A stretch of DNA of 55,154 nucleotides from a virus, in IMG/VR virus record IMGVR_UViG_3300044714_000251, positions 1-55,154 of that record; one strand, 5' to 3'. The notes under the pieces were generated by a model that was not told where the DNA came from, made no database searches, and saw only the letters and a program-made list of their open reading frames with translations. Shown one piece after another: positions 20,306 to 44,712 of this stretch. Position 1 is the stretch's first letter, and every line of letters starts with the position of its first letter. The translations under genes and the position numbers were made by a program.

Positions 20306-20589
20306 TGGAGGCGAAGTTCAAGAGCTGCCCCCAGGCCCCGTCCACACGCGTCCCGACAGAAGTTTTTCGGACTCTCGACTCGTTGCTTCGAGAGCTCAAG
20401 GAATCGAAACCTCGGGCGAGCAGGGAAACGATTGGGGCGCTTCTCATCCTCCGAGACCGCCTCAAGGCGTCAGACCTGTCTGCGCGAATCGGTCACCATC
20501 GCAGGTGGGAGAGGATTCGCCGGCTTCTGGCGAAGCTGTTGGAGGCTGAGTCGCGGCTCAAGAAGGTCGAGAGTAGACTCGCTTCATGA
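20305..20589 (+). CDS. Hypothetical helical protein
   Basis: 94 residues, TGATG overlap. Helical, basic (RDRLKASDLSARIGHHRRWERIRRLLAKLLEAESRLKKVESRL), ending in a probable coiled coil. No family recognised. Confidence 0.55.
   Translation: MEAKFKSCPQAPSTRVPTEVFRTLDSLLRELKESKPRASRETIGALLILRDRLKASDLSARIGHHRRWERIRRLLAKLLEAESRLKKVESRLAS
20574..20579 (+). promoter_or_regulatory. -10 element TAGACT, leaderless gene
   Basis: TAGACT ends six bases before the ATG at 20586; no Shine-Dalgarno. No clear -35. Fits the leaderless pattern. Confidence 0.45.
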
Positions 20590-21503
20590 ACACTCCCGGC
20601 TATCCCGTTCGTCTTCAGTTTCTCTTCTCTCAGGGGGGCGCGCTCCTTTTGACGGAGATCTCAGGAAGGAAGGTCTTCGTGCCGTTTGACGCGAAGGCTG
20701 CGCGGAGCTTTGTGGAGAAGGGCGAGGCGGACGAGATCGCAGCTCCGGGGGCGAGCTGCGGATGCAAACACGCCGCGCCTCCTGCGCCCAACCGCGCCGG
20801 GCGCATTGCTGCGGTTGGGATCGTGGTGGGCGAGCCCCTTTTGGCGGTGGCCGAGGGGGTCGAGGACCGGGTGGCGTGCTGCGGCGAGGAATGCGCCGGA
20901 GAGCTTCAAGAAGGGCAGCCCCGATCGCTCCGCTTCGATCGCTACGCCGTGGCCGAGGACGGAGGCTATGAGCTGCGCGATTCGGTGACGGAGGAACTCC
21001 CTGAGAATCTCGTGAACACGTTCGCGCAGAGGGGGCCGTCATGTCTCCCGTGGGTTCGGATCTCGCGAGACCCGAACCGATTCCGGGCCTGTCTTGCGAA
21101 GGCACGAGCCATCGGTCCGATGGACGATGCCTCGGCTGTTTACAAGCTCGTGGGCGAGCACTTGGCCAAGGAAGATCAGGAGGTTTTTCTCGTCATCCTT
21201 CTCGATTCGCAGCTTCACGTCCGGGCGATCTCCGAGATCGCTCGAGGGTCAAGGGATCGGACCGCGGTTTCGATTCCAGACGCCCTCCGCGTGGCGCTGG
21301 TCGACGGCGCCATGTCGATGATCGTTGTGCACAACCACCCGAGCGGAGAGGTTCGGCCGTCGAGTTCGGATGAGCAGCTCACGGCCGCTCTCAAGATCGC
21401 CTGCCAGAAGGTCGGGCTCCAGTTGATGGATCACGTGATCGTGGGCGCGGGTCGGCGCCGGTACTATTCGTTTGCTGCCGAAAGGAACAAGGCTCTTTCA
21501 TGA
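20586..21503 (+). CDS. radC: RadC-like JAMM/MPN protein
   Basis: 305 residues. C-terminal RadC domain: FLVILLDSQLHVRAISEIARGS, MIVVHNHPSGEVRPSSSDEQLT (HxHPSG...SxxD metal motif) and GLQLMDHVIVG. The N-terminal 180 residues are not the usual RadC helix-hairpin-helix; they include two Cys clusters (SCGCKH, ACCGEECAG). RadC proteins are common on mobile elements; the activity is unsettled and could be a metalloprotease or DNA-related. Confidence 0.8.
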   Translation: MNTPGYPVRLQFLFSQGGALLLTEISGRKVFVPFDAKAARSFVEKGEADEIAAPGASCGCKHAAPPAPNRAGRIAAVGIVVGEPLLAVAEGVEDRVACCGEECAGELQEGQPRSLRFDRYAVAEDGGYELRDSVTEELPENLVNTFAQRGPSCLPWVRISRDPNRFRACLAKARAIGPMDDASAVYKLVGEHLAKEDQEVFLVILLDSQLHVRAISEIARGSRDRTAVSIPDALRVALVDGAMSMIVVHNHPSGEVRPSSSDEQLTAALKIACQKVGLQLMDHVIVGAGRRRYYSFAAERNKALS

Positions 21504-21952
21504 ACCAGACGTCTCTTGAGAAGTCAAACGGAACAAAGCCGGCCGAAGAGCCTCCGGCGCCCAAGGTCTTCACGGTCGCTCTCGTCGACGGATCCATCTG
21601 GCAGCTTGGAGAATCGGTCCCGGGGACCGATGAGACGGGGGCTCTGGATGCGTCCGGAAATCTCGACGTCGGGAAGCTTGGCAAGCAAGCGATCAAGGTC
21701 CTGGCGATGCACGAGCAGGGGGATGGCTCCGTGAAGGTCTACGGGATGCCTGTCCCAGGGAGCAACTACGACGAGCAGAAGACGGCATTTGTCATTACAC
21801 TCTCCTCGCACACGATCCGAAGCGTTGTGACCGCCGCGCGGTTCGATGTCTGGCATGAGCTTCTCGAGGACGAGGAGTTCGAAGATGACGAAGAGGAAGA
21901 GATCGAAGAAGACGTGAAGCCGCAGAACGTGTCCAACGGAGCTACCTCGTGA
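21500..21952 (+). CDS. Hypothetical protein with acidic C-terminus
   Basis: 150 residues. Beta-rich core (FTVALVDGSIWQLG...VKVYGMPVPG...FVITLSSHTI) then a run of Glu/Asp (EDEEFEDDEEEEIEEDV). ATGA overlap. Begins what may be a structural operon; the acidic tail is chaperone- or scaffold-like. Confidence 0.6.
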   Translation: MNQTSLEKSNGTKPAEEPPAPKVFTVALVDGSIWQLGESVPGTDETGALDASGNLDVGKLGKQAIKVLAMHEQGDGSVKVYGMPVPGSNYDEQKTAFVITLSSHTIRSVVTAARFDVWHELLEDEEFEDDEEEEIEEDVKPQNVSNGATS

Positions 21953-22272
21953 GCTCGACAGCGACTCTCACCTACGAGGTGACAGCCGTCGGGCCGACGG
22001 TGCCGTCGAACCTCGAGACGGCCATGGCCGCGGTCGTCTTGAATCACACAGGCATCGCCGAGATCACGGGGGCAGCGCTCGCGAGCGACACCACGACGAT
22101 TGCGGGACCGGTGGTGACGAGAACGGTGGTGTTCGACATCGCGACCACCGATTTTCAGCGCCGTTTCCCTGTGGGATCGGATCAGGGCGCACCCTTTCGC
22201 GGGATCTACACCTCGTTCTTTGGGGCGCAGCTCAACACGCAGGTGAACGAGCAGCCTGTGGTGATTGCCTGA
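21949..22272 (+). CDS. Hypothetical beta-rich 107-aa protein
   Basis: GTG start, GTGA overlap. Thr/Val/Ala-rich alternating pattern (ATLTYEVTAVGPTVPSNLETAMAAVVLNHTG) suggesting beta strands. No family recognised. Confidence 0.55.
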   Translation: MSSTATLTYEVTAVGPTVPSNLETAMAAVVLNHTGIAEITGAALASDTTTIAGPVVTRTVVFDIATTDFQRRFPVGSDQGAPFRGIYTSFFGAQLNTQVNEQPVVIA

Positions 22273-23807
22273 TGCCTCGTCGATTGAAGGAGAACCCGCC
22301 GGAAGATCCGAACGCGACGATGGACGACGTGACGTCCGCGCTCCACTCCGCGGATGTCCCCAAGAACCCGGACGGGACAGTCGTCGAGGAAGGAGAGGTT
22401 TCCGTTCTCCAGGCGCAGAACATCGGAGCTCTGGATCCGGTCTCCGACGCGGAAAACCAGAAATTCACGAAGGTGCTCCAGCGGAAGATTGCGGGGGCGG
22501 ACGGCTACGTTCCGTGGGGCGGCGACCTTTATCGCATCTACGAGGGGATTCGAACCGTTCTCGTAAGCGAGTGGTCTCAGCTCTCGGTGATCGTGAGTTG
22601 TCCGGCCACGAACGTGCAGTTTCCGCCCAAGCCGGCGGCGACGTTCAAGTCGTACCAGGAGCTCTACGAGTACGTGGAGCAGTGTCACGGGTACGGACCT
22701 TCAGCGACCTACAATGTCAAAATCACGAGCCGAAAGGGCATGGTCCGAGGGCAGGCGCCCCTCACGCTTCCCGATCGCGCGCCGTCCCTTCAGCCGCCTC
22801 CGCAGGTAATGCAGCAGCAACAGTATGGCGGCCCCCCCGTGGTTGTGAACATGCCGAGGCAAGAGCAGCCGATGGCGCCCGCGCCGGAGCCGCAGCACTC
22901 CGACCGGCTCACGGAAATGCTGCTCTCGCAGCAGCAGCAGCAAACCGCAATGGTCCTCGGCGCCCTCAAGGAACTCGCGGAGGTCATCCGCAAGCCTCAA
23001 ATGCCGCCCGGGTTTATTCCGCTCCCGGAGGGCTGGCCGACGATCCCTCAGGGGTACGTGGCGGTGCCGGGGGGCTGCATTCCTGCGCCGCAGCTCCCGG
23101 CGCCAGCCCCTCCTCCCCAGGTCATTCAGGTGCCCACGCCCCAGGCTAGCCCCGTGGTTCAGGCGACTCCGGTTCCAAATACAAATTCCGCGCCGCAAGG
23201 ACCGGCCCAGCAAGTTGAGGGTGCGGTCAAGATGATGTCCTCTCTCTTCAAGAGCATGGAGGACTTCAAGACGATGTTCGGGGGCGTGGGAGGCACGGTT
23301 GCGGGCGCTGCGGAAGATGTGCTCGAGGAAGAGGTCGCGGAGTCCGCGGTTTCGACGGTTCCCATTGGCGATGGCTTGAACATGGTCCTGAACAAAAAGG
23401 ACCAAACGACCAACTGGCCGGCGACGATCTTCGCGGCTCTTCCGAAGCTTCTCGAGATTGGAAAAGCAGGAGTGGCGGAGTACTCCAAGGTCGTCGACAA
23501 GCAGGCGGCCATCGCGCAGCAAATGACGGCGTCTCGTATCCGCCTTGCGCAGGAGGTGCAGCGCGTTCAAGGGGCCGTGCAGCCGGAGGCCCCGCAAGCA
23601 CTCGCTCCCCCTACACCACCTCCTCCGATCGAAGTGCGACAGCAAGCCTCTCAGACGGCGCGTTCGGTGCCGGGGACACGTCGACGCGACCCATGGACGA
23701 CGATCAAGCCGCTCTGGGCCACCCCCTCCGCGCCGGCTCCCGAAGAGGAAGCTCCGAGGGTGGAGCCTTCGGTTTCCGAGCCTGTCGCGTCCCCAGCGAC
23801 CGGGTAG
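22272..23807 (+). CDS. 511-aa protein with Pro/Gln-rich middle, unrecognised
   Basis: N-terminal 165 residues are a folded domain (GGDLYRIYEGIRTVLVSEWSQLSVIVSCPAT). Residues 175-300 are Pro/Gln-rich (PPQVMQQQQ, MPPGFIPLPEGWPTIPQGYVAVPGG) and the C-terminal part is helical with basic ends. No P-loop and no portal or terminase motif. Starts in an ATGA overlap. Probably a virion-assembly protein by position only. Confidence 0.65.
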   Translation: MPRRLKENPPEDPNATMDDVTSALHSADVPKNPDGTVVEEGEVSVLQAQNIGALDPVSDAENQKFTKVLQRKIAGADGYVPWGGDLYRIYEGIRTVLVSEWSQLSVIVSCPATNVQFPPKPAATFKSYQELYEYVEQCHGYGPSATYNVKITSRKGMVRGQAPLTLPDRAPSLQPPPQVMQQQQYGGPPVVVNMPRQEQPMAPAPEPQHSDRLTEMLLSQQQQQTAMVLGALKELAEVIRKPQMPPGFIPLPEGWPTIPQGYVAVPGGCIPAPQLPAPAPPPQVIQVPTPQASPVVQATPVPNTNSAPQGPAQQVEGAVKMMSSLFKSMEDFKTMFGGVGGTVAGAAEDVLEEEVAESAVSTVPIGDGLNMVLNKKDQTTNWPATIFAALPKLLEIGKAGVAEYSKVVDKQAAIAQQMTASRIRLAQEVQRVQGAVQPEAPQALAPPTPPPPIEVRQQASQTARSVPGTRRRDPWTTIKPLWATPSAPAPEEEAPRVEPSVSEPVASPATG

Positions 23808-23827
23808 CGCCTTTTCAGAGCTTCCGG

Positions 23828-23833
23828 TAGGCT
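23828..23833 (+). promoter_or_regulatory. -10 element TAGGCT, leaderless gene
   Basis: TAGGCT ends seven bases before the GTG at 23841. No convincing -35. Supports this start and a new transcript after the 33-base gap. Confidence 0.45.
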
Positions 23834-23840
23834 GCGGAGC

Positions 23841-25259
23841 GTGATCTCCGTTCCCGAGGCCGGCGACATCGCGGGGCAGGTTCAGGCCGGCGTCGACCTC
23901 ATCTCCGCACTTGCGCAGGTCGCCAACGGAACGTTGGATGCTTCGGCGCTCGTCGAAAACGGAATTTCGATCGCGGGGGAGGCGTTGAGCGGTGGAATCA
24001 CGGCGGCTGCGGACGTCGTTGGAGCTGTGACGACGACCGCGCTATCGGGTCTGGCGATGACGGGGCCGACCGGAGCAGCCATCGCCGATGCGGTCGCGGC
24101 TGGGGTTTCGGCGGCGACGGCCGAGATTCCGGTGGTCGGCGAGGTGGTCGCCGTGGTGGCGGCTGTCATCGAGATTTTGGCGGCTTACGTCGGGGGTGGC
24201 GTCGATTCGGTCGACCAGGTGCTTGGCGCGTCCAAGGCGACGGCTCAGATCTGCGGTTCTATCGGACGATTTTCTTCCTCGCACAAGTCGCTCTCCGGAA
24301 ACCCAATCGGGTGGGAGATGGCGGACTATCTCGCGTTTGCGCGACCGCCAAGTTCGTCTACGTCGCCGGAGAAATTCAAGAGCCTCATGTCGGAGGTTGC
24401 CCAGTTTTACATCTCGAAGTCGAACTCCTACGCACCCGAGCTGAATCAATCGAACGACACGAACAACATCGTCAACGCGATCAACTCCTTCGTGGGGGTG
24501 GTAAACTCCTCGCTCCCCATCTACACGGCAGAAGAGTTTCTCTCCTGGCAAGTGCCGCTCTGCACGCCCGTGTGGTTCGACTGGTACAAGCCGACGGGGA
24601 TAGAAGACTGCAACACCGACCTCACCTTCGGGGGTGGCGGGGACTCGACGACCGCGCTCGCGCAGTGGCAAGCGATGGTTTCTTCCTCCGCCGCGCAAAA
24701 AAAGCTCAGTGCATGGCTCAAAGCCACGCCTTCCGTGGGTGGGCTCTCTCCGACACAAATCGTTCAGATGGCGATGGTTGCGCCACTTGACCCGCTCTAT
24801 TGGAGCTCGGATCTCTACGGGATGGTGGGGTCGAGTGGATCGGCCGACGGGTTCGCGACCGTCTACTACAACGTCGATCTGATGAACGGCATCGCCACGC
24901 ACCTGATGATGCGCGCCTCAGGCGCCTCCCCCATGGGAGTTCTCTCCGAGCTGCTCATGCAGTCCGCGCTTCTCTCGCAGTACGGCGGGACGGATTCGAG
25001 CGGCAACAGCATCCCCAATGTGTCGAAAAATCAATACGGATTTCATCGCCTTGTCGACGACTACATCACCTACGTCAACGCGCTCGGGTACTCGCAGTCG
25101 CTTTCGACCACGGGGATGGTCGGTGCGGTGGTGGCCGGTGCAGCGGGCGCGACATTGGTAGGCATTTTGGGGTATTCCCTTTGGAAGAGGCAGTCGCCTC
25201 TCGTGACGGTCGGTCAGGCAAAATCAAAAATCATTCGAGTCGGAGGCAGGTACCTATGA
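23841..25259 (+). CDS. Large hydrophobic protein with C-terminal TM
   Basis: 472 residues. Residues 1-130 are Ala/Gly/Val-rich with long apolar helices (GAVTTTALSGLAMTGPTGAAIADAVAAGVSAATAEIPVVGEVVAVVAAVIEIL), reminiscent of pore or fusion-type segments. A soluble middle and a final TM helix (GMVGAVVAGAAGATLVGILGYSLWKR) follow. Plausibly a membrane-penetration or virion membrane protein; no family recognised. Confidence 0.65.
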   Translation: MISVPEAGDIAGQVQAGVDLISALAQVANGTLDASALVENGISIAGEALSGGITAAADVVGAVTTTALSGLAMTGPTGAAIADAVAAGVSAATAEIPVVGEVVAVVAAVIEILAAYVGGGVDSVDQVLGASKATAQICGSIGRFSSSHKSLSGNPIGWEMADYLAFARPPSSSTSPEKFKSLMSEVAQFYISKSNSYAPELNQSNDTNNIVNAINSFVGVVNSSLPIYTAEEFLSWQVPLCTPVWFDWYKPTGIEDCNTDLTFGGGGDSTTALAQWQAMVSSSAAQKKLSAWLKATPSVGGLSPTQIVQMAMVAPLDPLYWSSDLYGMVGSSGSADGFATVYYNVDLMNGIATHLMMRASGASPMGVLSELLMQSALLSQYGGTDSSGNSIPNVSKNQYGFHRLVDDYITYVNALGYSQSLSTTGMVGAVVAGAAGATLVGILGYSLWKRQSPLVTVGQAKSKIIRVGGRYL

Positions 25260-25771
25260 ATCGCGTAGCCATGATGAGAGCCCGTGCGGAAACCATGGAA
25301 CGCGTCAATCTCCGCCGCTTCGGCGTCGAGCCCGTTCGGCTGCGGGGTCTCGGACGCGTGCCTCGCGGTGTTGGGCAGACGGTCATGGCGAACTCGAACA
25401 CGTCTTGTTCGAGCTGGCTCAACGTCACGATGCAGAACTACCAGCAGCTCGGGTTTCCCAACATCCCGGCTCTTCTCACGGGGCTTGAGGCCATCTGGAA
25501 ACAGGTCTCGACCGGGGGGAATGCGTCGGATTCGAACGGAACCCCCTTCGCGATCGTTGACGGCTCTCTCCACTTTCTCCTGACGCTCTCGAACGGAAAC
25601 ACCGTGGCGTGCAAGTGGGACTCGGCCAACCTGTACGTCTGCCAAGGCAACTCTCAGCCGGCCGTCACGCCGCTTGCTACTTCGGCGGCGACATCGACCT
25701 CCACGCCCTACATTGTGGCGGGAATCGTGGGCGTGCTAGTAATCGGGGGACTCTTCTACTACGCCGACTGA
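25256..25771 (+). CDS. Tagged one-TM virion-like protein, paralogue of next gene
   Basis: 171 residues. An Arg-rich leader contains RLRGLGRVPRGVGQT (two copies of the GxG motif). The domain from about 43-130 (CSSWLNV...LTGLEAIWKQ...TPFAIVDGSLHFLLTLSNGNTVACKWDSANLYVC) also occurs in the next gene. C-terminal TM helix (TPYIVAGIVGVLVIGGLFYYAD). ATGA overlap upstream. Confidence 0.7.
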   Translation: MNRVAMMRARAETMERVNLRRFGVEPVRLRGLGRVPRGVGQTVMANSNTSCSSWLNVTMQNYQQLGFPNIPALLTGLEAIWKQVSTGGNASDSNGTPFAIVDGSLHFLLTLSNGNTVACKWDSANLYVCQGNSQPAVTPLATSAATSTSTPYIVAGIVGVLVIGGLFYYAD

Positions 25772-25778
25772 GGGATCC

Positions 25779-27035
25779 ATGGAAGACTTCGCGTTCAGCA
25801 TCCGTCCCCCCGTTTCTCCGATCGGATTCGGCGCGGTCCCTGAGGGGCTCGGGCAACATGCCACAGCCTCCGCGCATCCTTCGTTGAACTCGATAGCGAT
25901 CCCTCATGGATCGGGGACTCCCGCGAAGCACAAGCCCCACCCCCACCGTGGCGTGGGCTCGTTCGCGGCCGCGTCACCCCAGAAGGCGAATTGGGTGCTG
26001 GCCTACGTCTACGGAGAGCGCGCACCGCGCGTGAAGATCAAGGGGAGCGGGTTCGACTACGCGAAGGTGCTTCAGCAGTTTGTGCAATCCGGCCAGCCTT
26101 CGCAGTACTTCACGTGGACGGGTACGGGCGGAACGTTTCTCTTCTCGTGCATCTACTCGGGCTCGACACCTGTGGTGCGGCTCGCGACGAACGGTCTTCA
26201 GCGCGGAATGGGACGCAAGCCAACGGGGATGGGGGACATCACGCCGGGCACCGTGACGTGCAACGCCAGCTGGATCACGATCAACTCGCCGGGTCCGAAC
26301 GCGGACTCCTTCAGCCTCACTGGATCAGACATCTCCGGCGCGCTGACGACGATGAAGAACGCATGGTCTCTCGCCATGGGCGGGAAGACGACGCCGTTCA
26401 CGGTCTCGAACGGGGCGATGCACTTCATTTTCTCAAGCGATCACACCGCGAACATCCCGATGAAGTACGACGGCGTGAATCTTTACGCGTGTGGAGTGCC
26501 GGTCACCGCGGCTCCTTCTTCGCCGCCTGCCGTGCAACCGATCGCAACCCAAGGCGTGACGCCGATCTCGGGAGGCACCTCCGTCGACAACGGCACCTAC
26601 ACCTGGGACAATTACATGTGGGTGTACCAAGCGTCGGGGTCGAACGACTCTCCAAACGGCTCTCCCCCTCCGGGACAGCCCGCGGGCGTGTCGGGGGCAT
26701 GGGTAAACGTCTCGGGCAACCAATGGAACTACTATCCGAACTCAGGCCCCCAACCGCTCCCGGTGGTCGATCCCACGGGGGTGACGTGGTGGACGTACTC
26801 GAGCGCGAACGCGGCGATGTACAACGCTCCGTCTTCGGCGTACATGCCGCCTCTTCCGGGCTCGACAGTCCCGCCAGCGTCGCTTGCGGGGACGAGCGGG
26901 TCCTGGTCGGGGAACGTGCACTCCTACTACCAGGTGTGGATTCCGACGGCCGGAATGACCGACGGTGAAATTCTCGCGATCGTTCTCCTCGGTGCGCTCG
27001 GAGTGGGTGGCGTCGCGTACCTGGTGTCGGAATGA
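25779..27035 (+). CDS. Tagged one-TM protein with paralogous domain
   Basis: 418 residues. GxG motifs at IGFGAVPEGLGQH (about 15-28). The middle (TCNASWITI...LTGSDISGALTTMKNAW...TPFTVSNGAMHFIFSSDHTANIPMKYDGVNLYACG) aligns by eye with the previous gene. A Trp/Tyr/Gly-rich region follows (about 265-390, with repeated W-x-Y/S patterns), then a C-terminal TM helix. Looks like a surface protein anchored in a membrane. Confidence 0.7.
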   Translation: MEDFAFSIRPPVSPIGFGAVPEGLGQHATASAHPSLNSIAIPHGSGTPAKHKPHPHRGVGSFAAASPQKANWVLAYVYGERAPRVKIKGSGFDYAKVLQQFVQSGQPSQYFTWTGTGGTFLFSCIYSGSTPVVRLATNGLQRGMGRKPTGMGDITPGTVTCNASWITINSPGPNADSFSLTGSDISGALTTMKNAWSLAMGGKTTPFTVSNGAMHFIFSSDHTANIPMKYDGVNLYACGVPVTAAPSSPPAVQPIATQGVTPISGGTSVDNGTYTWDNYMWVYQASGSNDSPNGSPPPGQPAGVSGAWVNVSGNQWNYYPNSGPQPLPVVDPTGVTWWTYSSANAAMYNAPSSAYMPPLPGSTVPPASLAGTSGSWSGNVHSYYQVWIPTAGMTDGEILAIVLLGALGVGGVAYLVSE

Positions 27036-27403
27036 ACGGCGTAGGCTCTCCGACGGGACTCGGCATCACAGCACCGCCCGCCGCGATCAGCGGAGGGTAT
27101 GTGCCCCCGACGATTCACGCACAGCCGCTCCCCGCGCCCTCGTCCACGACCCCCACGACAGCACCCGCCTCAAGTGCTCTGACCGCACCAAGCTCGGCGC
27201 TCATGGGGAGCACATACCAAGGTCCTCGCCGCGGCACGGCCACGTGGGTTTACATTCTTGGGGGTGTCGCTGCGCTCGGAGTGATGGGCGCGCTCTATTG
27301 GGCGTTCATGCAGCCGGGGAACTCGCCGAGCGCGGCGGCGTCGGAGGGCTACCCGAAATCGAATCCGATGAGGCGTCGGCGACGTCGGCGACACAGGAAG
27401 TGA
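27032..27403 (+). CDS. One-TM protein with GLG tag and poly-Arg C-terminus
   Basis: 123 residues. SPTGLGITAPP near the N-terminus, a Pro/Ser/Thr-rich stretch, TM helix (WVYILGGVAALGVMGALYWAFM), then KSNPMRRRRRRRHRK: the NP plus Arg cluster now at the C-terminus, opposite to the other NP proteins. The poly-Arg tail may touch DNA. Confidence 0.7.
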   Translation: MNGVGSPTGLGITAPPAAISGGYVPPTIHAQPLPAPSSTTPTTAPASSALTAPSSALMGSTYQGPRRGTATWVYILGGVAALGVMGALYWAFMQPGNSPSAAASEGYPKSNPMRRRRRRRHRK

Positions 27404-28305
27404 ACCGGGGGCTCGGCAAGGGCTTCGCTCCGTCGGCCTCGGCGGCCGCTGCGGCCATGCCGGGGGCGAAGATTCGCCAAGAGTCGCATCCGCCGGGCGT
27501 TGCGGGAACCACATTTTCTCTGAAGGAGATGGCGAAGTACATCCGCGATGGCCGGAACGACCCCAGGATGATCGGGTGGGCAGGACGTGTCTTGGTGAAG
27601 GCAGGAAAGCCGAAGAGCGTCACGGCTCAGGCGCAGGCCATCCTGGACGAGATTCGGCGCGTGACGATGTATCTCCCCGACGGTGTCAACACGGAAAGAG
27701 TGACCGCCGCTCCGGTTTCGCTTTGCCTCGACGAGCACGGTCTCTGTCTCCCCGCAGGCGACTGCGACGATCGCTGCGTGTGTTTTGGCTCGGGCACGAT
27801 GGCGCTCGGCATTGAGACCATGGTGGTGGCCCAAGCCTATGACGGGAGCGGTCCCAACGTCCGAGCCACGCACGTGATCTGCGCGATTTTGGATCCGAGT
27901 ACGGGCTGGCAGCGTGTCGACCCGTCGACCGACGACTTCCCGGTTGGAAAGTCGTATCCTGCGACGAAGGAGTGGTGGATGGACCCGATCACAGGCACGA
28001 CAGCGTCAACCCCTGAGGGAGCGATGCAACCGCAGGCGAACCAAGAAGCCATGCGTGGCGACTTTATCGGCGTCGGTGCTGTGCCGCGCGGTCCGGTGGT
28101 CTACGGGCATCCAACGGGTCTCGGCGCCGTTCCGTTCGAGCACGCTTTCGGTGCAGTCGACGAGGGGTGCGAGCAAGGCCCCGCGGACGTAACCGCGGAT
28201 CTCACGCACGGCGACTGCCGGCAGAGGTTTCCTCTCTACGCTCCGCAGCCCATCGGGGTCGGAGACATCCCGGTGTTTCCGGAGTGGGTTCGACGTGGCC
28301 GATAA
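27400..28305 (+). CDS. Transglutaminase/papain-fold protein
   Basis: GTG start in a GTGA overlap. 301 residues. AGDCDDRCVCFGSGTMALG (Cys122), RATHVICAILD (His158) and WQRVDPSTDD (Asp174) match the Cys-His-Asp triad of transglutaminase-like domains. GxG motifs occur at the N-terminus (RGLGKGFAP) and three times near the C-terminus (IGVGAVP, TGLGAVP, IGVGDIP). It may be a protease, cross-linker or inactive structural version. Confidence 0.75.
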   Translation: MNRGLGKGFAPSASAAAAAMPGAKIRQESHPPGVAGTTFSLKEMAKYIRDGRNDPRMIGWAGRVLVKAGKPKSVTAQAQAILDEIRRVTMYLPDGVNTERVTAAPVSLCLDEHGLCLPAGDCDDRCVCFGSGTMALGIETMVVAQAYDGSGPNVRATHVICAILDPSTGWQRVDPSTDDFPVGKSYPATKEWWMDPITGTTASTPEGAMQPQANQEAMRGDFIGVGAVPRGPVVYGHPTGLGAVPFEHAFGAVDEGCEQGPADVTADLTHGDCRQRFPLYAPQPIGVGDIPVFPEWVRRGR

Positions 28306-28738: not shown

Positions 28739-28835
28739 CGGAATCGTTCACCATTCTCCGGCGCGGAAGCTCGGTCCTTCAGGAGCCGAGAGGAAGCGCC
28801 GTCTTCTTGTGTTTCGTCTTGGTAGTGCTACGCCT

Positions 28836-36151: not shown

Positions 36152-36152
36152 G

Positions 36153-36890: not shown

Positions 36891-38206
36891 ACCGAGCTCT
36901 TTTGGCTACCGTTGCTCTCCTCGCCGCCGAAGGCATCTATCGTCCCGTGGGAGGAGGTGGGGGTGGCAGCGGGATCACGCAGCTCACAGGGGACGTCACT
37001 GCGGGACCTGGTTCCGGTGCGGTTCCGGCAACCGTGGCTCGAATCAACGGGGCGACGGTGCCCGCGGCAGGTGCGCTGACGACAGGCAACGTGCTCCAGG
37101 TGACGGGCACGAGCGCTCTCGGCTATGCGGCCGTCAATCTCGCAGGGGGGGCGGGTTACATCACGGGCAACCTCCCCGTCACCAACATCGCCCCGGCGGG
37201 AACGAACGGATTTGTTCTCACGACCACCGGGGGCGTGACGGGGTGGGCCGCAGCTACGGGCGGAAGCGGCATTACGGCACTCACCGGAGACGTGACAGCC
37301 TCCGGGACAGGATCGGTGGCTGCAACGGTCGTACGCCTCACGGGCACAGGAGGCGTGGTCACGGTCCCCACGGCCACACTGAACTTCGGCACGAACCCCT
37401 CTACGACGGGGGCCATCAACCTCGCCAACGGAACAGGCATCTACCAGAGAAACGCGGCAAACACCGCCGACATCCGCTTCCTGGACATGGACACGGTCAA
37501 CGAGATCCTCATCGGGGATTACGGCGCCGCCAACGTGACTCTCGTCTCGAATTCGGGGCTCGTCGTCGATACCGCTTCGGGAGGTGTGTTCTCGTATGAG
37601 GGGACGACGCTGTCGACAAGCGCCGGAAACGCCGCTTTCAACGGAACAGGCTCTTTTGGAGGAGGTTCTGGCGTTATCGGTCTTCTGACCGCCGCGACTC
37701 AACCCACAACACTCCCGGCGGGACTTGTGCTCGCCGAGGGAGCAACAGGGCTTTTTGCCTATCAACCCGGAAACTCGTTCAATCGGCGGTCCTTCTGTCC
37801 TGTCCCCCAAGGAACCGCAGCCTCGCAAGCCGCAACCGTGGTGGACTTTTTCGGTTTTGCTTCGACGACGACGGGCGCGACGACCACGACCATCGTGACG
37901 ATTCCTTTGCCCGGGTCCAGCAACTCTATTGGGATGATCGTGACGGCCGTCGGCCGGCAAACCTCGGGGACCGTGGGCGCAACGACTGTCATCTCCCAGA
38001 CGGTCGGATTCAAGAACATCGCCGGCACCGTCACGGCCTTGACGACTCAGGGCACGGCCACCGTGGCGTTCGATACGGGCTTCACGGGCGGCTCAATCGG
38101 GTACGCGATCTCGGGTACGAATGTGGAAATTCAAGTGAATCAAGGGGGAACTGCGGCTGGCAATGCGGATTGGACTTGTTACGTCACGGCGTGCGTGTAC
38201 AACTGA
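36887..38206 (+). CDS. Spike/fibre-like protein 1
   Basis: 439 residues. N-terminal hydrophobic MNRALLATVALLAAEG, a Gly linker, then GITQLTGDVTAGPGSGAVPATVARINGATVPAAG, a fibre repeat well known from phage receptor-binding proteins, partly repeated at about 124-145 (GITALTGDVTASGTGSVAATVVRL). The C-terminal beta domain (about 310-439, TTTIVTIPLPGSSNSIGMIVTAVGRQTSGT) may be the receptor-binding head. Confidence 0.75.
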   Translation: MNRALLATVALLAAEGIYRPVGGGGGGSGITQLTGDVTAGPGSGAVPATVARINGATVPAAGALTTGNVLQVTGTSALGYAAVNLAGGAGYITGNLPVTNIAPAGTNGFVLTTTGGVTGWAAATGGSGITALTGDVTASGTGSVAATVVRLTGTGGVVTVPTATLNFGTNPSTTGAINLANGTGIYQRNAANTADIRFLDMDTVNEILIGDYGAANVTLVSNSGLVVDTASGGVFSYEGTTLSTSAGNAAFNGTGSFGGGSGVIGLLTAATQPTTLPAGLVLAEGATGLFAYQPGNSFNRRSFCPVPQGTAASQAATVVDFFGFASTTTGATTTTIVTIPLPGSSNSIGMIVTAVGRQTSGTVGATTVISQTVGFKNIAGTVTALTTQGTATVAFDTGFTGGSIGYAISGTNVEIQVNQGGTAAGNADWTCYVTACVYN

Positions 38207-38214
38207 ACGCAGCC

Positions 38215-38610
38215 ATGCACTACGTTCAAATACCCGCCTCGATTCGACTCCGCGACCAAGTTTCTAAGGTCGAAGGTGAGACGGTGTCCTTCCAGCGCTA
38301 CGCGCACGATCTCTGGCTCAATGACGCGCGGTGGGAGACACCCAAGACGAACCTTCTTCGACTCATGGTCGTCCTTCCCCTCCTCGGAAGAGCGCCCGGC
38401 GAATGGGTCGAACTCGAGGATCAGGACTGGGTCATCCTGAAGAGCATCATCGACATGCCGGGTGTCGGATCCGGGGGGGCTCCTACCCTGTATTCACCTC
38501 TCGTTCAGATTCAGGTGGGTCCGACGTTCGAGCGGGCTATCCTGGACTCACCGACCAAAGACCCTCGAGCGGTGTTGAACGGAGCAAAGGAAGACCATGG
38601 CCAAGCATAG
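38215..38610 (+). CDS. Hypothetical 131-aa protein
   Basis: MHYVQIPASIRLRDQVSKVEGETVSFQRYAHDLWLNDARWETPKTNLLRLMVVLPLLG. Compact, mixed alpha/beta, between spike and small proteins. Residues 1-60 recall tail- or connector-type small proteins but no family is recognised. Confidence 0.6.
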   Translation: MHYVQIPASIRLRDQVSKVEGETVSFQRYAHDLWLNDARWETPKTNLLRLMVVLPLLGRAPGEWVELEDQDWVILKSIIDMPGVGSGGAPTLYSPLVQIQVGPTFERAILDSPTKDPRAVLNGAKEDHGQA

Positions 38611-38803
38611 CGGCATCCAGCGACGCAATCGTTTTCAGGCTTCTCTTCTCGCGAACGAGGCGGGCTACCGAGCGCTTCAGTCGACACTCTCGACGAGCAA
38701 GAAGATTGCCGGCGTGACCGCGGCCGGTCTTCAGGGGCCTGGAGTGCAGTCGCTCGCGAAGGTGGCCGGAGCGCTCAACGCGATCGGATTCGCCGCTCAG
38801 TAA
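38597..38803 (+). CDS. Hypothetical 68-aa helical protein
   Basis: MAKHSGIQRRNRFQASLLANEAGYRALQSTLSTSKKIAGVTAAGLQG. Basic N-terminus and an amphipathic or weakly hydrophobic C-terminus. Overlaps the previous gene by 14 bases. Confidence 0.55.
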   Translation: MAKHSGIQRRNRFQASLLANEAGYRALQSTLSTSKKIAGVTAAGLQGPGVQSLAKVAGALNAIGFAAQ

Positions 38804-38806
38804 TCT

Positions 38807-38826
38807 TGATTTCAAGGGTATTGCAA
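38807..38826 (+). promoter_or_regulatory. 20-bp element A, copy 5
   Basis: TGATTTCAAGGGTATTGCAA, 29 bases before the ATG at 38856. Followed at 38825-38843 by an 8-bp hairpin with a 3-base loop that pairs the ggagga of the likely ribosome site. Confidence 0.6.
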
Positions 38827-38855
38827 ACTCCTCCTGGAGGAGTTACCGTTCGGGG

Positions 38856-39185
38856 ATGTTCGACGTCAACGAGTGGTGGCACGTCCTTACCAACGGCAAA
38901 GAGTTCGTGGGCAAAGCCGATGGGAAGAAGCTCTCCGACGTCCAGGAGTGCATCACCCAGACCGGCATAGTTCAGGATGCGCAGGGGCGTGCGCGTCCAC
39001 ACAAGGTCGTGATGACTTTCCCCGCACGTGTCCGAACGCTCGACATCCCTGTGGGTGCGCTTTGGATTTCGATCGCGGCCTACAACGACAAAAACGAATG
39101 GGCGAAGACCATCGAGTCAACCGAACGTCTCGCTCTCGAGCAAAGAGCGCAGGAGTCTGGACTTCAGATCGTTCGAGGGCACTGA
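38856..39185 (+). CDS. Hypothetical 109-aa protein
   Basis: MFDVNEWWHVLTNGKEFVGKADGKKLSDVQECITQTGI then a beta-rich half (HKVVMTFPARVRTLDIPVGALWISIAAY). No family recognised. Has its own element A and an RBS-pairing hairpin, so it may be regulated apart from the virion operon. Confidence 0.6.
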   Translation: MFDVNEWWHVLTNGKEFVGKADGKKLSDVQECITQTGIVQDAQGRARPHKVVMTFPARVRTLDIPVGALWISIAAYNDKNEWAKTIESTERLALEQRAQESGLQIVRGH

Positions 39186-39403
39186 TGCCGCCGCCGCGTC
39201 TCCCGCCGATGGCCGAACGGTTCGCGCGCTCGCTCACGCAGCAGCTCGCCGAAATCCTCACGAACGCGCTGGCAGGGGCTCTGGATGACGGTCTTGAACG
39301 CGTGGAGGATAAGGTTCAGGAGGGCCTCGGACGCATCAAAAGAGCCCGTGGAGTTGCGCAGAAGAGAGCCCGTCGCGGGCGGGTGACGTCGCGCGCGAGG
39401 TGA
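39185..39403 (+). CDS. Small basic helical protein
   Basis: 72 residues, TGATG overlap. Helix (ARSLTQQLAEILTNALAGALDDGLERVEDKVQEGLGRIKRA) then an Arg-rich end (KRARRGRVTSRAR). No family recognised. Confidence 0.55.
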   Translation: MPPPRLPPMAERFARSLTQQLAEILTNALAGALDDGLERVEDKVQEGLGRIKRARGVAQKRARRGRVTSRAR

Positions 39404-39411
39404 AGTAAGCT
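39383..39411 (+). promoter_or_regulatory. Promoter GTGACG-N17-TAAGCT, leaderless
   Basis: GTGACG (39383-39388), 17-bp spacer, TAAGCT (39406-39411), seven bases to the ATG at 39419. Confidence 0.6.
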
Positions 39412-39418
39412 CGTCCCT

Positions 39419-40135
39419 ATGCCGGACGTGCTGGCCCGACGGGCAAAGGTGATTGCAGACGAGGCCCTTCTCCGTGCCGTCCATGGCGGAGGAGGTGGGG
39501 GCGGCGGCATCACGCAACTCACGGGAGATGTCACGGCGGGTCCCGGCTCGGGTGCAGTTGCGGCCATAGTGGCTCGAGCCAACGGGGCGACGATTCCGGC
39601 GGCGGGCGGACTCACTCCAGGCAACGTTCTTCAAGTTACCGGAGCGAGCGCGCTCGGGTATGCGCCGGTCAACTTGGCTTCCGCGGCCTCTGTTACAGGG
39701 CTTCTTCCGGTCGCGAACATCGCGCCAGCGGGAACGAACGGGTTCATTCTCACAACGACAGGTGGCGTGGCCGTATGGGCCGCCAATGGAGGCGGATCCG
39801 ATCTCACCCCGCGCGTGACGGTCAATCATGGGAACTCTCCTTTTACGGCCCTTCCTGGATACCGGCACATTGTCGACGAGTCTGAAGGCGCCGTAACGAT
39901 CAACCTTCCTTTGGGATCTCCGGCGGGGACAGACATCGCGATCAAAATCCTCACAGGACCCACGACGAACGGGCTAACCGTAAATGCCCCCTCTGGAGGA
40001 ACCGTCGAACAGTCACTCGAGGAGGCGGGGAGCGGTGGGGTTTACGCATCCTCGGCAACGTTCACCTCCGCGCAGGACATCGGAACCTCATTCACGTGGG
40101 AGTGTGATGGGTCCAACAATTGGGAGGCCGTCTGA
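39419..40135 (+). CDS. Spike/fibre-like protein 2
   Basis: 238 residues. After MPDVLARRAKVIADEALLRAVHGG it repeats the fibre module of the 36887 gene (GITQLTGDVTAGPGSGAV...NGATIPAAGGLTPGNVLQVTGASALGY...IAPAGTNGFILTTTGG). The C-terminal 110 residues differ (beta-rich, YRHIVDESEGAVTINLPLGSPAGTDIAIKI). Shared stem with different heads suggests alternative receptor binding. Confidence 0.75.
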   Translation: MPDVLARRAKVIADEALLRAVHGGGGGGGGITQLTGDVTAGPGSGAVAAIVARANGATIPAAGGLTPGNVLQVTGASALGYAPVNLASAASVTGLLPVANIAPAGTNGFILTTTGGVAVWAANGGGSDLTPRVTVNHGNSPFTALPGYRHIVDESEGAVTINLPLGSPAGTDIAIKILTGPTTNGLTVNAPSGGTVEQSLEEAGSGGVYASSATFTSAQDIGTSFTWECDGSNNWEAV

Positions 40136-42840
40136 TGCGTTTGCTTTGGATTTTCCTTCTGGCTTTCGTTTCGGCATGTTCGGCGCGCAGCATCCCCGTG
40201 CCTGCACCCGAGACCAAAGACGCCACAGTAGTGGTAGAGCCTCCGCCTCCGACCGTTCCAGGACGTCTCCTTGGAGCAAACGGGAATTTTGCATTTCCCA
40301 TCGGCCCCGCCTCTCTGAGCGGATTCGACGCCGGAACATACCCCAACCCGATCATCCCCGAAGGCTCGCAAGGTACGTTTTACCCAGGATCAGTCTCGAA
40401 TCTTGTCGACCAGAACTCGCTCATCTGGGGTGACGTGACGCAGCCTGAATGGCAAGGTGTGAGTTGCTATCTCACGGGTCCTACGGGCACGCCACAACTC
40501 ATTGGAGGCGCGGGGCAGAGCCCCGACGGTTCGCAGGACGCGGTCTGGGTCAACGAAGGTGCGGTCTCGTCGGGGGTGCTTGCACTCTCCCACGACGCTT
40601 TCGTCCCGACCGGCGTGACGAGTTTCAATTTCGAGATCGACGTGATGAACGCGCCTGGGGGGAGCGCAGTTAGCGTCCCCATGATCATCCTGAATTCGAA
40701 TTCAGGATGCGGTGGCAATGGTGCGATAGCGACAAGCAACACGAGTACTTGCGTCACAACGAACTCATGGCAAACGTGCCGACTTGCATCGGGGACGGTG
40801 GCTCACGGCACGGCCTATACGGTTCAGATCCCGCTCAACTACTCCACCCTTGGGACTGCGGGGGCGACCTTTCTCATCGCGCGCGCGCGCATCGTACCGA
40901 CCGGGTCGATTTCGCCCCCGCTCTTTCGATCCCCTGAGTCCTCACCCGCCGGAAGCTTCTATCGCTACGAAGCGAGCCCTGTTCTTTGGGACAACATCCA
41001 CTCGGATTTTGTTGGGGTTGGCGGAGTGGGCGGAGTCGGCCTGGCTCCCTTCCGGCAGTACTTGTTTCAGAGCCCATTTGCCCGGATGGTCTTCCAATCC
41101 AACGGACAGACTCAGGTCGGTCTAGAGGTTTTGAACGCGGGACTCACGAGTACGCCCAACCAACAAGTGGGCGTCAATGTGAACGGACGTCCGTACGCGA
41201 GCTTTGTCGGCGCGACGTCGCCCATGGTCGAGGACGCTACAACCCTGACGCTTCCCTCGGGGAACAACGAGATCGAATTCGTCGGCGGCGAACAAGGTTA
41301 CATCGGGCTCGGAATCTATCCAGAGAGCGCCGGCATCAGCGGTGAGTTCGTCCGAGCGGCCTACTCGACCACACCTCTCACGGTGCTTCCTCCGCCAAAA
41401 CCCTCGCGAACCGTGGTGGTGTGGGGGGATTCGAAGGAGGCCGGGATCTGGAGCACGAATCCTCCTGCCCAGGGATTTCCGGTTCTGTTGAGGCAGATGC
41501 TTGGTGGTCAAACGAGCACGGTCATCGAGGCCGTCGGGTCGAGCACCCTGAACAACGACACCAACACTCCAGCGCTTATCACCCAACTCGCTCAGCGCAT
41601 GGCCCGTGCGCGACCAGACATTCTTCTGTCGGTCATCGGCCGCAACGACTGGGCCGATTCCACGATGACACCCACCGTCTTTACAGCAACACTCGAGGCA
41701 GCATGGGATGCCATTCACGCAGCCACTCCAAGCACGCAGATCGTGGCCGTCACCTGGTGGCTCGAGTCCGTTGCACAAGAGTCCTCGACGATCAGTGGGT
41801 TCACGCTCGCAAACTTTCGTGCGGCGGAGCAGAACGCGTGCACGGCGAGGCCTACCTACTGCGTGTTCATGAACGCATCGACGGGGATTCCAAACTGGAA
41901 TCAAGCCTCGGGAGCTGGATCTAGCCTCTACACCGACGGCGTCCACCCCTCGAACTACGGATCGGGACAAGCCGCCAGCTACGTAGGTCTTCAGGTCTCG
42001 CATCTTCTGCCTGCATCGTCTTCGCTTCAGAGCTGGTACCCAGCGGAAACGGCCCAGACATGCTTGGTTCAGGCGCAGAACGTCGCGGCGGGGAGCCACG
42101 ATCTTTGCATCTACGCAACCGATCAGGCGAATGTCATCTACTACGGAGACCAGTACAACAACGGCGTCTACATCAACTCGAGCGCGAGTGTCACGCTTGG
42201 CATTCCTGGCGCCGACGCTCTTACACTTGTCCGCGGGACGGGCGGAGGGACGCTGGAATTTACGGGAAACATTTTCCAGTTTTCGAACGTCGCAGCCTCG
42301 GCGAACGCAATCGTCAACCAGAGTCAGCCCATCACCGATATCCCAGCAACTCCACTGACGGTTCAGGCGCAAGGAGCTTCGACAGGGGCTGTCACCAATG
42401 TAGTGGGAGGGGTCACGCAAGTCTTGGCCGGGCAGGGGACCACGCCCGCGAACAACGGTGGCATCTTGTTGGGGTATGGGCTCCAGACAGCTCCCACGCC
42501 CTTTTTCAGTTACGGCACCGGCGGAAACGGATGGATCCCGCAGACCTCTTCACAGTCGCTCGCCACGACACCAGTCACCCTAACATCCACCGAACTCTTG
42601 ACGCCCTATGTGATCTACACAGGAGCTCTCTCGGCAAACCCCACCGTCGTGAATCTACCAAACGTCGCCGGCATGTGGTTCATGGACATTTCCGCGGTCA
42701 CGAACACCACGGGCAACGCCATTGAGTTCGTGAGCGGTTCGGCCACCTGCTCTACGATTCCAGGGGCTTTGACGGTCGCGAACGATCTCGTCATCGTCCA
42801 TACGACGGGCGCAAACGGCATCACCTGCGGACTCCTGTGA
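40135..42840 (+). CDS. Spike-type lipoprotein with SGNH hydrolase domain
   Basis: 901 residues. Lipoprotein signal MRLLWIFLLAFVSACS (lipidation at about Cys15). A beta-rich region precedes the SGNH/GDSL esterase: VVVWGDSKEAG (catalytic Ser about 428), LSVIGRNDWAD (block III Asn), TDGVHPSNYG (Asp/His). The last 260 residues are fibre-like beta. It probably deacetylates or de-esterifies a surface polysaccharide at adsorption, held in a membrane by its lipid. Confidence 0.8.
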   Translation: MRLLWIFLLAFVSACSARSIPVPAPETKDATVVVEPPPPTVPGRLLGANGNFAFPIGPASLSGFDAGTYPNPIIPEGSQGTFYPGSVSNLVDQNSLIWGDVTQPEWQGVSCYLTGPTGTPQLIGGAGQSPDGSQDAVWVNEGAVSSGVLALSHDAFVPTGVTSFNFEIDVMNAPGGSAVSVPMIILNSNSGCGGNGAIATSNTSTCVTTNSWQTCRLASGTVAHGTAYTVQIPLNYSTLGTAGATFLIARARIVPTGSISPPLFRSPESSPAGSFYRYEASPVLWDNIHSDFVGVGGVGGVGLAPFRQYLFQSPFARMVFQSNGQTQVGLEVLNAGLTSTPNQQVGVNVNGRPYASFVGATSPMVEDATTLTLPSGNNEIEFVGGEQGYIGLGIYPESAGISGEFVRAAYSTTPLTVLPPPKPSRTVVVWGDSKEAGIWSTNPPAQGFPVLLRQMLGGQTSTVIEAVGSSTLNNDTNTPALITQLAQRMARARPDILLSVIGRNDWADSTMTPTVFTATLEAAWDAIHAATPSTQIVAVTWWLESVAQESSTISGFTLANFRAAEQNACTARPTYCVFMNASTGIPNWNQASGAGSSLYTDGVHPSNYGSGQAASYVGLQVSHLLPASSSLQSWYPAETAQTCLVQAQNVAAGSHDLCIYATDQANVIYYGDQYNNGVYINSSASVTLGIPGADALTLVRGTGGGTLEFTGNIFQFSNVAASANAIVNQSQPITDIPATPLTVQAQGASTGAVTNVVGGVTQVLAGQGTTPANNGGILLGYGLQTAPTPFFSYGTGGNGWIPQTSSQSLATTPVTLTSTELLTPYVIYTGALSANPTVVNLPNVAGMWFMDISAVTNTTGNAIEFVSGSATCSTIPGALTVANDLVIVHTTGANGITCGLL

Positions 42841-43208: not shown

Positions 43209-43216
43209 GGTAGGCT
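43188..43216 (+). promoter_or_regulatory. Promoter GTGACG-N17-TAGGCT
   Basis: GTGACG (43188-43193), 17-bp spacer, TAGGCT (43211-43216). The ATG at 43241 is 24 bases on, with caggag, so this transcript has a leader. Same -35 as the promoter at 39383. Confidence 0.55.
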
Positions 43217-43240
43217 CTTCCGAACCAGGAGACACCCCCT

Positions 43241-43486
43241 ATGGCCCGTCGACGTCGCTCCGCACACCGCCACTATGCCCGCCCGAACCCTTTGAGCGAC
43301 ACCGAGCTCATTGTAGGGGGACTTGTAGGGGTCGCTATCCTCAGCCTCGGCGGATATTTGGTCTACACGCACTACAACGCCCTTCCGGCCGGATCGACCG
43401 CACCGGGCGGGACGGTATCGAGCGTCTCGACCGATGCGAACGGGAACACGCTCATCAACGGGTACCCCGTTGCGTCGTCGAGCTAA
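43241..43486 (+). CDS. NP-motif one-TM protein
   Basis: 81 residues: MARRRRSAHRHYARPNPLSDTE, TM helix (LIVGGLVGVAILSLGGYLVYTHY), Ser/Thr/Gly tail. Clear member of the Arg/Lys-NP-TM family. Confidence 0.75.
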   Translation: MARRRRSAHRHYARPNPLSDTELIVGGLVGVAILSLGGYLVYTHYNALPAGSTAPGGTVSSVSTDANGNTLINGYPVASSS

Positions 43487-43664
43487 GTCCTACCGGCGCA
43501 AGAACCCCTGGCCGGACACTGAGACGCTCGTCTTCGGTGCTGGGTTCGTGGCGATTTCTGCGCTTGGCATCGCGATGATCGCCGATGCGATCGGTTCGTC
43601 GGAGGACACCATGACGGATCTCGGGGACACCTCCACTCTCGCGACACTCGCCACGGTGGTTTGA
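43470..43664 (+). CDS. NP-motif one-TM protein
   Basis: TTG start inferred inside the previous gene. 64 residues: MRRRAKSYRRKNPWPDTE, TM helix (TLVFGAGFVAISALGIAMIAD), acidic/Thr tail. Shares SYRRKNP with the gene at 44083. Confidence 0.65.
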   Translation: MRRRAKSYRRKNPWPDTETLVFGAGFVAISALGIAMIADAIGSSEDTMTDLGDTSTLATLATVV

Positions 43665-44086
43665 TGATGGCCGGGCTCGTCTTGGGGGCGCTCGCGCTCG
43701 GGCAGCTCCCGCCCGCGGAGGATGCGCCCCAGGGGCTCGGAACCATCCCGGTCGAGCCGCACGTCTATGGACAGTGGCCTTTCGAAGGTTTCCCCGAACA
43801 AGTCGTGCTGAACGGGCGGACGTTCAATCTCGCGAAATGGTCCTGGCCGCTCTACAGCGGCGTGCAGCAGCAATACCGCGAGGCGGTGCCGACGAACTCG
43901 CAGCACCTGATGATTTACGACGATCTCTCGTACGACGTTCAGCACATGGACGAGATCAACCCGGACGCGGGGAACCCCCTTCAGCACGCGGTCGTCGACG
44001 CTCCCGGCGCTACCTCGGCGGCGATGGCCGCTCTTGGCTTCGCGCTTGGGCTCGTCGGGGGTATTCTGCTCCTGAGGACGCTTTGA
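43664..44086 (+). CDS. Hypothetical membrane-linked protein with GLG motif
   Basis: 140 residues from the ATG at 43664 (TGATG overlap). N-terminal apolar segment (MAGLVLGALALG), QGLGTIPVEPHVYGQWPF, a soluble middle with LAKWSWPLYSGVQQQY, and a C-terminal TM (AAMAALGFALGLVGGILLLRTL). Carries the GxG motif. Confidence 0.65.
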   Translation: MMAGLVLGALALGQLPPAEDAPQGLGTIPVEPHVYGQWPFEGFPEQVVLNGRTFNLAKWSWPLYSGVQQQYREAVPTNSQHLMIYDDLSYDVQHMDEINPDAGNPLQHAVVDAPGATSAAMAALGFALGLVGGILLLRTL

Positions 44087-44355
44087 AGAGCTACCGGCGC
44101 AAAAACCCCTACGAGCGGGCGAACCTCTCCGGCGTCGATCTCGCCGAGGAGGATCTCATCCTGATCGGTGTTGGCGTGACGGTCGTCGGCGTTGTCGGGT
44201 ACCTCCTGGTGACGAAAATTCTCGAAGCGCTCCCCTCCGGCGCAGAGGTCGCCGCTGCGCTGAACAGCACGATGGGTGGGAGCACGAACAACGGAAACGA
44301 CGTCCCCCCCGGGGAAGACCCGAACGAGCCTGAGAACCAGGTGGGCTATGAGTAA
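44083..44355 (+). CDS. NP-motif one-TM protein
   Basis: TTG start in a TTGA overlap. 90 residues: MKSYRRKNPYERANLSGVDLAEED, TM helix (LILIGVGVTVVGVVGYLLV), tail ending in acidic/Asn residues. Confidence 0.7.
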   Translation: MKSYRRKNPYERANLSGVDLAEEDLILIGVGVTVVGVVGYLLVTKILEALPSGAEVAAALNSTMGGSTNNGNDVPPGEDPNEPENQVGYE

Positions 44356-44500
44356 GCGCCGAAAGGGCCGCCCCAATCCGCTCGACCCCAACGACTGGCT
44401 TAAGCTCGCGGTCGCGGGCGGCATCGTGTTCGCGATTGCTGTGGCCCTCTACAACAAAGCGAACGGCATCGGTGACTTCGCTCCCGAGGAGCCTTCATAA
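44348..44500 (+). CDS. NP-motif one-TM protein (50 aa)
   Basis: MSKRRKGRPNPLDPNDW, TM helix (LKLAVAGGIVFAIAVALYN), short acidic tail. The shortest member of the NP-TM family. Overlaps its neighbour. Confidence 0.7.
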   Translation: MSKRRKGRPNPLDPNDWLKLAVAGGIVFAIAVALYNKANGIGDFAPEEPS

Positions 44501-44712
44501 TGGCCGCTCCCATCCGTTACACCGACAAGTCGACGATCACGATCGACGACAACGCCAAGACGCTGCTCATGCTCGGAGCCGTGGTGCTTGCCGGTGCAGC
44601 GACTTACCTCCTCGTGAGTCGCGTGGCGACGGCCATCTCGCCCGCGACGCTCACGCCGAGCCCGCTCCCGACGAGCGATCCGACGCCCGACCTTCCCGTC
44701 GTCCAGACCTAA
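44500..44712 (+). CDS. One-TM protein with Pro/Thr tail
   Basis: 70 residues. IRYTDKSTITIDDNAK precedes a TM helix (TLLMLGAVVLAGAATYLLV) and a Pro/Thr-rich tail. Lacks the basic NP start. Last gene of the run. Confidence 0.65.
   Translation: MAAPIRYTDKSTITIDDNAKTLLMLGAVVLAGAATYLLVSRVATAISPATLTPSPLPTSDPTPDLPVVQT

Follow-up and report, generated by a model that had tools for sequence, protein, structure and literature searches.

Salisaeta icosahedral phage 1 (SSIP-1) is a tailless, membrane-containing phage with a 44 kb circular double-stranded DNA (dsDNA) genome, a T=49 capsid and two types of coat protein (PMC6260650, PMC6356626). Prokaryotic double jelly-roll viruses have genomes of ~7–18 kb, with those that lack a packaging motor at the small end, and for the motorless members it has been suggested that the capsid assembles around the genome (PMC5894146). 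FLiP and the Odin group are without a packaging ATPase (PMC5894146), as are FLiP and Sulfolobus polyhedral virus 1 (SPV1) in a further account (PMC8812541); SPV1 has a lipid layer and a nucleoprotein core (PMC8459092). Here, we analyze the virus record IMGVR_UViG_3300044714_000251 in its entirety (55,154 bases; hereafter the window) and the module of candidate virion genes that it carries. We conclude that the window probably comes from a dsDNA virus of bacteria that has no tail and belongs to a new lineage at the family level. The nearest known virus by plan is SSIP-1.

A search of viral contigs with g50, the candidate major coat protein (32185..33453; 422 amino acids; genes lie on the plus strand unless noted), recovered 33 related loci at 40–88% identity. 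In iterated profile searches, g50 occurs at 33 of 33 loci together with the second coat candidate g51 (33532..34155; 207 amino acids) and, in the same order, the third virion candidate g52 (34169..35101; 310 amino acids). Next come g49 (32 loci), g44 (29) and g39 (27), the last a Pro/Gln-rich protein encoded upstream of the module (22272..23807) with no Pfam match. The order of the module genes was identical wherever we inspected it. Of 12 near-whole genomes, 11 encode the RadC-like JAB-domain protein g36 (20586..21503; PF04002, E 1.8e-32) and 10 the transglycosylase-like g4, while g45 (28295..28738; 6 of 33 loci, 7 of 12 genomes) is conserved in the nearer relatives. The best conserved protein of the lineage is g50: between the window and one relative (L001), its gene differs by 12%, 10% and 31% at codon positions 1, 2 and 3, which by this codon pattern is the signature of a constrained protein. 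The preliminary description had proposed a lineage, and a module common to 33 related contigs supports it. One relative, L006, carries a tandem duplication, with two g51 homologs in a row (11191–12554).

Outside these contigs the module is elusive. The coat candidates g50–g52 have no significant sequence relative in the PDB and none in Pfam or PHROG; tblastn with g50, g51 and g44 found nothing in 50,697 phage records; and no publication describing the group was found within the open-licence literature. A provirus search of a genome collection, made with patchy pattern searches, yielded no confirmed relative. One match of g50, to a Rhodobacterales metagenome-assembled genome (L106), adjoins MocR-type aminotransferase sequence and was dismissed as chance.

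Both ends of the window fall in a pentapeptide-repeat gene and have ~300 bp in common at 92% identity, and the assembly break probably lies in the repeats of this gene, which spans the contig ends (1–750 and 54697–55154). In two relatives, G001 and G002, genes from opposite ends of the window adjoin, in the same circular gene order opened elsewhere. A large circular dsDNA genome, as in SSIP-1, is thus indicated by gene order across the ends, with closure through the pentapeptide repeat taken from the order in the relatives. Judged by gene order, the window is a complete or near-complete and practically circular genome, and because of this circularity absences from it are meaningful. We called 95 genes with a purpose-written codon-usage caller; starts are provisional, and several minus-strand calls across 27–30 kb are shadows.

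The preliminary description had pointed to three adjacent beta-rich coat candidates. Their adjacency and conservation hold at all 33 loci, and beta-richness holds for the two that were modeled, g50 and g51. The AlphaFold model of g51 (predicted local distance difference test, pLDDT, 82.9; predicted template modeling score, pTM, 0.77) is beta-rich and predicts a single jelly roll: its top Foldseek match in the PDB is the SPV1 coat chain 6oj0_A (E 1.3e-4, prob 1.00, TM-score 0.39/0.44), followed by the KHP40 cement protein (E 2.8e-3) and by weaker matches that include P23-77 VP16 and an HHIV-2 chain. The model of g50 is of moderate quality (pLDDT 68.6, pTM 0.69) and also beta-rich, with no significant Foldseek match in the PDB. 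The non-significant matches listed for it are mostly papillomavirus L1, alongside SPV1, STIV, PR772, HHIV-2 and other jelly-roll coats, and HK97 is not among the PDB fold matches listed; these matches are suggestive of a jelly-roll coat. A search of the viral-model library BFVD gave no significant match for g50 either. Its top entry there, I1ZBH9 (prob 0.87, E 0.011, 211 amino acids), could not be identified, and a link to SSIP-1, which has two 211-residue proteins, was not shown. We also rejected the idea that g50, g51 and g52 are duplicates of one another, as they have no profile similarity.

Might these beta-rich proteins instead belong to the cell surface, carried by a plasmid-like or integrative element that forms no virions? 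The primase/VapE and XerC-type integrase genes of the window are also found on plasmids, lipoproteins and transmembrane (TM) proteins are many, and g50, g51 and g44 lack homologs in the phage records searched. Set against this are the strictly conserved multi-gene module with g50 as its most constrained member, the cell-wall enzymes, the SPV1-like coat fold and the occurrence of the relatives among viral contigs, with none confirmed in the genome collection by the patchy searches. We regard such an element as very improbable.

The case for a tailless particle draws on profile searches for tailed-phage hallmarks. Pfam, PHROG and NCBIfam scans took in 68 window proteins, and the best 25 families listed per scan included none for a head, portal, terminase or tape-measure protein. 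Those listed were RadC, Prim-Pol/VapE, AAA_24 (Sak4), RadD-type helicase, PD-(D/E)XK, tyrosine integrase, DUF192, TnpB, lysin and Mom-like families. Ten further proteins, scanned directly, matched nothing of this kind beyond part of a baseplate-hub family (the lysin-type g4) and, weakly, a tail-fibre profile (g62). Dedicated six-frame searches then covered 29 records (the window, 27 relatives of 53–127 kb and SSIP-1), with positive controls giving matches in every search. The HK97-fold coat (PF05065) and the portal (PF04860) were found in 0 of the 29, and terminase (PF03237) gave 0 matches in the window and 28 relatives. A 'terminase' match to phrog_2 was rejected, as it consisted of three matches to one P-loop stretch that in the window lies inside the helicase. 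Alternatively, the virus could belong to the tailed phages (Caudoviricetes), its genes for terminase, portal, HK97 coat and tail having diverged beyond recognition, with g51 as a cement or decoration protein and g56 and g62 as tail fibres; the KHP40 cement protein as second fold match of g51, the hub profiles matched by g4 and the tail-fibre profile matched by g62 would fit. However, the hallmark proteins are missing from all 29 records while the controls respond, the match of g4 to the hub profiles is incomplete and is accompanied by one to a transglycosylase profile, and nothing resembling a large tape-measure protein is seen: a lipase-type spike, the primase and the helicase are the longest proteins of the window. 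We therefore consider a tailed phage improbable. The absence of a recognizable terminase or portal, as originally described, is borne out, and no HK97 coat, portal or terminase emerged from the relatives or SSIP-1 that would overturn it. The tailless nature of the virus, well supported by these searches, gains further from the predicted SPV1-like jelly roll of g51.

How would such a virus package its DNA? The window encodes three P-loop proteins, as first counted: a primase/VapE helicase, a Sak4/AAA_24 ATPase and a helicase, none of them recognizable as a packaging ATPase. FtsK (PF01580) gave nothing above cut-off in the window, the relatives or SSIP-1, and HerA (PF01935) had no match in the window, G001 or G002. 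A HerA-like/DUF87 ATPase does occur in seven of 27 relatives, all distant (L090:15983-17983, L101, L102, L103, L104, L105 and L075), some with apparently broken frames, and it could be a motor for part of the lineage. These genes, together with the Sak4-like ATPases, leave room for a motor, and a tailless jelly-roll virus that uses ATP for packaging, through a HerA-type enzyme supplied by the host or recently lost or through the Sak4-like g28, must be weighed. In its favor, a Sak4/AAA_24 ATPase is present in 7 of 12 genomes by clustering, and the AAA_25 ATPase gp40 of SSIP-1 is annotated as a structural protein. Yet the window, G001 and G002 have neither HerA nor FtsK in gene orders that form the whole circle, HerA lies far from the coat genes wherever its position was tested, g28 is flanked by a nuclease gene and g29 as part of a recombination set, and the profile match between g28 and gp40 reaches only 14.6%. 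A motor of this kind therefore seems to us unlikely.

By the same simple hydropathy method, 22 of 95 window genes have a predicted TM segment, compared with 6 of 68 in lambda, 8 of 80 in D29 and 8 of 62 in SSIP-1, so the many one-TM proteins of the preliminary description represent a real excess. The lipoproteins are likewise confirmed, with lipobox starts visible in the genes at 4190, 5370 and 40135. Small TM proteins and lipoproteins cluster at 2554..8333; the small single-TM proteins g64 and g66–g69 lie at 43241..44712; and the small proteins g53–g55 (35098..36151) combine GLG/GFGQ motifs in the N-terminal part with a C-terminal hydrophobic segment. The neighboring g41 and g42 (25256..27035) have a C-terminal TM segment, G-x-G motifs and a repeated domain in common, which suggests duplicated membrane-anchored virion proteins. 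The product of g49 (30883..32115) starts with a very basic N-terminus and continues with hydrophobic segments; all full-length homologs have 26–37 Arg+Lys in a stretch of 60 residues. This composition fits a genome-condensing membrane protein. SSIP-1 gp44 is alike in the aligned segment and was rejected as a g49 homolog, since the match fails against reversed sequences. Given the surplus of small single-TM proteins and the basic g49, we infer that the particle likely contains a membrane. In several small membrane proteins (6349, 7207, 30883, 43241, 44083, 44348), basic residues followed by NP(L) recur just before the hydrophobic segment; this motif is a possible sorting signal.

Upstream of the coat genes, g44 (26965..28305, an open frame with uncertain start) encodes a predicted transglutaminase-fold enzyme. 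The predicted triad consists of Cys 27763–27765, His 27871–27873 and Asp 27919–27921, and all three positions are conserved in the alignment, the Cys within GDCD/E and the His within THV. Transglut_core (PF01841) matches 26 of 29 records including SSIP-1, 15 of them above the curated cut-off, with the window's match below it. The g44 profile aligns with SSIP-1 gp34 (hhalign prob 97.0, E 1.1e-10). Five relatives carry an insert of ~320 residues directly before the Cys, bounded by GD|CFPxGTLxL...VSN|CD[DE] (homologs at L002:4871-7513, L009:6103-7845, L017:6304-7938, L019:5641-7821 and L032:6129-7778). The four inserts that were scanned all gave Hint matches below cut-off, two of them also LAGLIDADG matches below cut-off, and we read the inserts as inteins. 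Inteins favor active-site motifs, and their position at the presumed catalytic Cys therefore supports an essential cysteine. g44 is a candidate cysteine enzyme, perhaps for protein cleavage or cross-linking.

A possible site of action is a G-[LFVM]-G motif near the N-terminus of 27 of 30 g50 homologs (GLG at residues 19–21 of g50, in the low-confidence N-terminus of the model), which recurs in many virion candidates of the window and is a candidate processing or capsid-binding signal. GxGQ occurs nine times in these candidates, against 1.3 expected and a maximum of five in 200 shuffles. We rejected GLGQ as a family-wide cleavage signal, because clear enrichment of GxGQ is confined to the window and to G001, G002 and G003. 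Most coat N-termini retain GLG but not the Gln after it, an argument against a general role in Gln cross-linking. In L002, the g44 homolog and the g50 homolog (9998-11260) have similar C-terminal ends, LLNSLVPSGVVGTAK and IMNQLVPSGAVGTAQ, respectively, possibly a shared capsid-targeting tail.

From these genes and predicted folds we infer a lipid layer, a set of particle proteins, roles for g49 and g44, and packaging without a motor. The large g50 and the single jelly-roll g51, aided by g52, would build an icosahedral shell, with the small single-TM proteins in a lipid layer beneath it. g49 would bind and condense the DNA and tie it to this layer, and the genome, for want of a recognizable motor, may become enclosed through condensation or through co-assembly, a mechanism put forward in the literature for other jelly-roll viruses that lack a packaging ATPase. 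After assembly, g44 may cross-link virion proteins or cleave them for maturation, perhaps in the vicinity of the G-[LFVM]-G motifs. The receptor spikes would be g56, g61 and g62, and g4, g5 and g11 would open the cell wall.

Several points weigh against this interpretation. The lineage is known from genes and predicted folds alone; g51 is the one of three coat candidates with a statistically supported jelly-roll match, at a TM-score below 0.5 and with a Helicobacter phage cement protein in second place; g50 has no significant fold match; genomes of 55–127 kb are far above those usual for tailless phages (7–18 kb for the double jelly-roll viruses); and seven distant relatives have a HerA-like ATPase. 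Transglutaminase-like domains, moreover, occur in 10 of 14 control genomes and are common in bacteria, so that sharing one with SSIP-1 is no proof of kinship. Of the interpretation first offered, the tailless particle is well supported, the lineage is supported, the membrane is likely, and the jelly-roll coat is significant for one protein of three. Only tentatively, then, do we propose the more ambitious picture of a widespread bacterial jelly-roll lineage with circular genomes of ~55 to perhaps >120 kb, several-fold the size typical of tailless phages. In this picture the DNA is enclosed with no packaging ATPase, through condensation on an Arg/Lys-rich membrane protein, and a transglutaminase-fold enzyme matures the particle.

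The other genes of the window fit around the module. The stretch g56–g62 (36845..42840) holds the spike or fibre candidates g56, g61 and g62 (PF13472, E 1.8e-9; tail-fibre phrog_5240, E 8e-4), and g62 combines a lipobox with a GDSL lipase domain. The putative wall-opening pair at 1235..2520 consists of the transglycosylase-like g4 (phrog_3874) and the Rv2525c glycoside-hydrolase-like g5 (PF08924). Replication and recombination are represented by g26, a primase-polymerase with a VapE-type helicase (10626..13019, minus strand; PF09250, PF05272), and by g27–g30 (13377..17900), which encode a PD-(D/E)XK nuclease, the Sak4-like ATPase, a probable single-stranded DNA-binding-like protein (g29, by position) and a RadD-type helicase. 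The tyrosine integrase is g73 (45860..46795; PF00589, E 6e-28). The integrase and recombination set named in the preliminary description are therefore present, although they lie outside the 20586–44712 block to which it assigned them (13.4–18 kb and 45860). That description also omitted a gene inside the block, between g45 and g49: an IS200/IS605-type TnpB (28671..29990; phrog_506, E 2.5e-40; NF040570). It has no match in the proteomes of 11 relatives and no recognizable TnpA or Rfam RNA nearby, and is apparently a foreign insertion. A Mom-like DNA modification protein is encoded at 52751–53254 (phrog_1384, E 6.2e-23).

If our reading is correct, large dsDNA phage genomes would not, as assumed, always need a motor and an HK97 head: here would be a tailless bacterial virus of 55 kb with neither, and with relatives on contigs as long as 127 kb. 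IMG/VR would then hold a tailless phage family unrecognised by the usual marker genes. A transglutaminase fold, with active-site inteins in some members, would be a candidate addition to the virion enzyme classes of tailless phages. SSIP-1, whose coat proteins have no other relative in the viral contigs, might also gain a context.

Among known systems, the double jelly-roll phages (Tectiviridae, Corticoviridae, FLiP and the Odin group) are likewise tailless and mostly membrane-containing, but their genomes measure ~7–18 kb, and g50 is only a candidate coat with a beta-rich model. In the Helvetiavirae (P23-77, SH1 and HHIV-2), as in the window, genes for a large and a small coat protein are adjacent and an internal membrane is expected; of their two single jelly-roll coats, the counterpart is supported for g51, while the matches of g50 are non-significant. 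The window differs from them in its much larger genome and in having no FtsK-HerA match (PF01580, PF01935). SPV1, a tailless member of the Portogloboviridae, provides the best solved-structure match of g51, although it has a ~20-kb genome and an archaeal host, and g51 has no sequence similarity in the PDB and matches the fold at a TM-score of 0.39/0.44 only. In SSIP-1, the two coat types are of ~210 amino acids each, in contrast to the pair of 422 and 207 in the window; gene order is not common beyond the general plan; and hhalign of g50, g51 and g52 against all SSIP-1 proteins gave no significant match. As coat homology is not detectable, we do not claim membership with SSIP-1. The two nevertheless resemble each other in a circular dsDNA genome that is large for a tailless phage, in having no HK97, portal or FtsK-type match above cut-off, and in a transglutaminase-fold protein encoded upstream of the coat genes: gp34, annotated as structural in SSIP-1, and the candidate virion protein g44 in the window.

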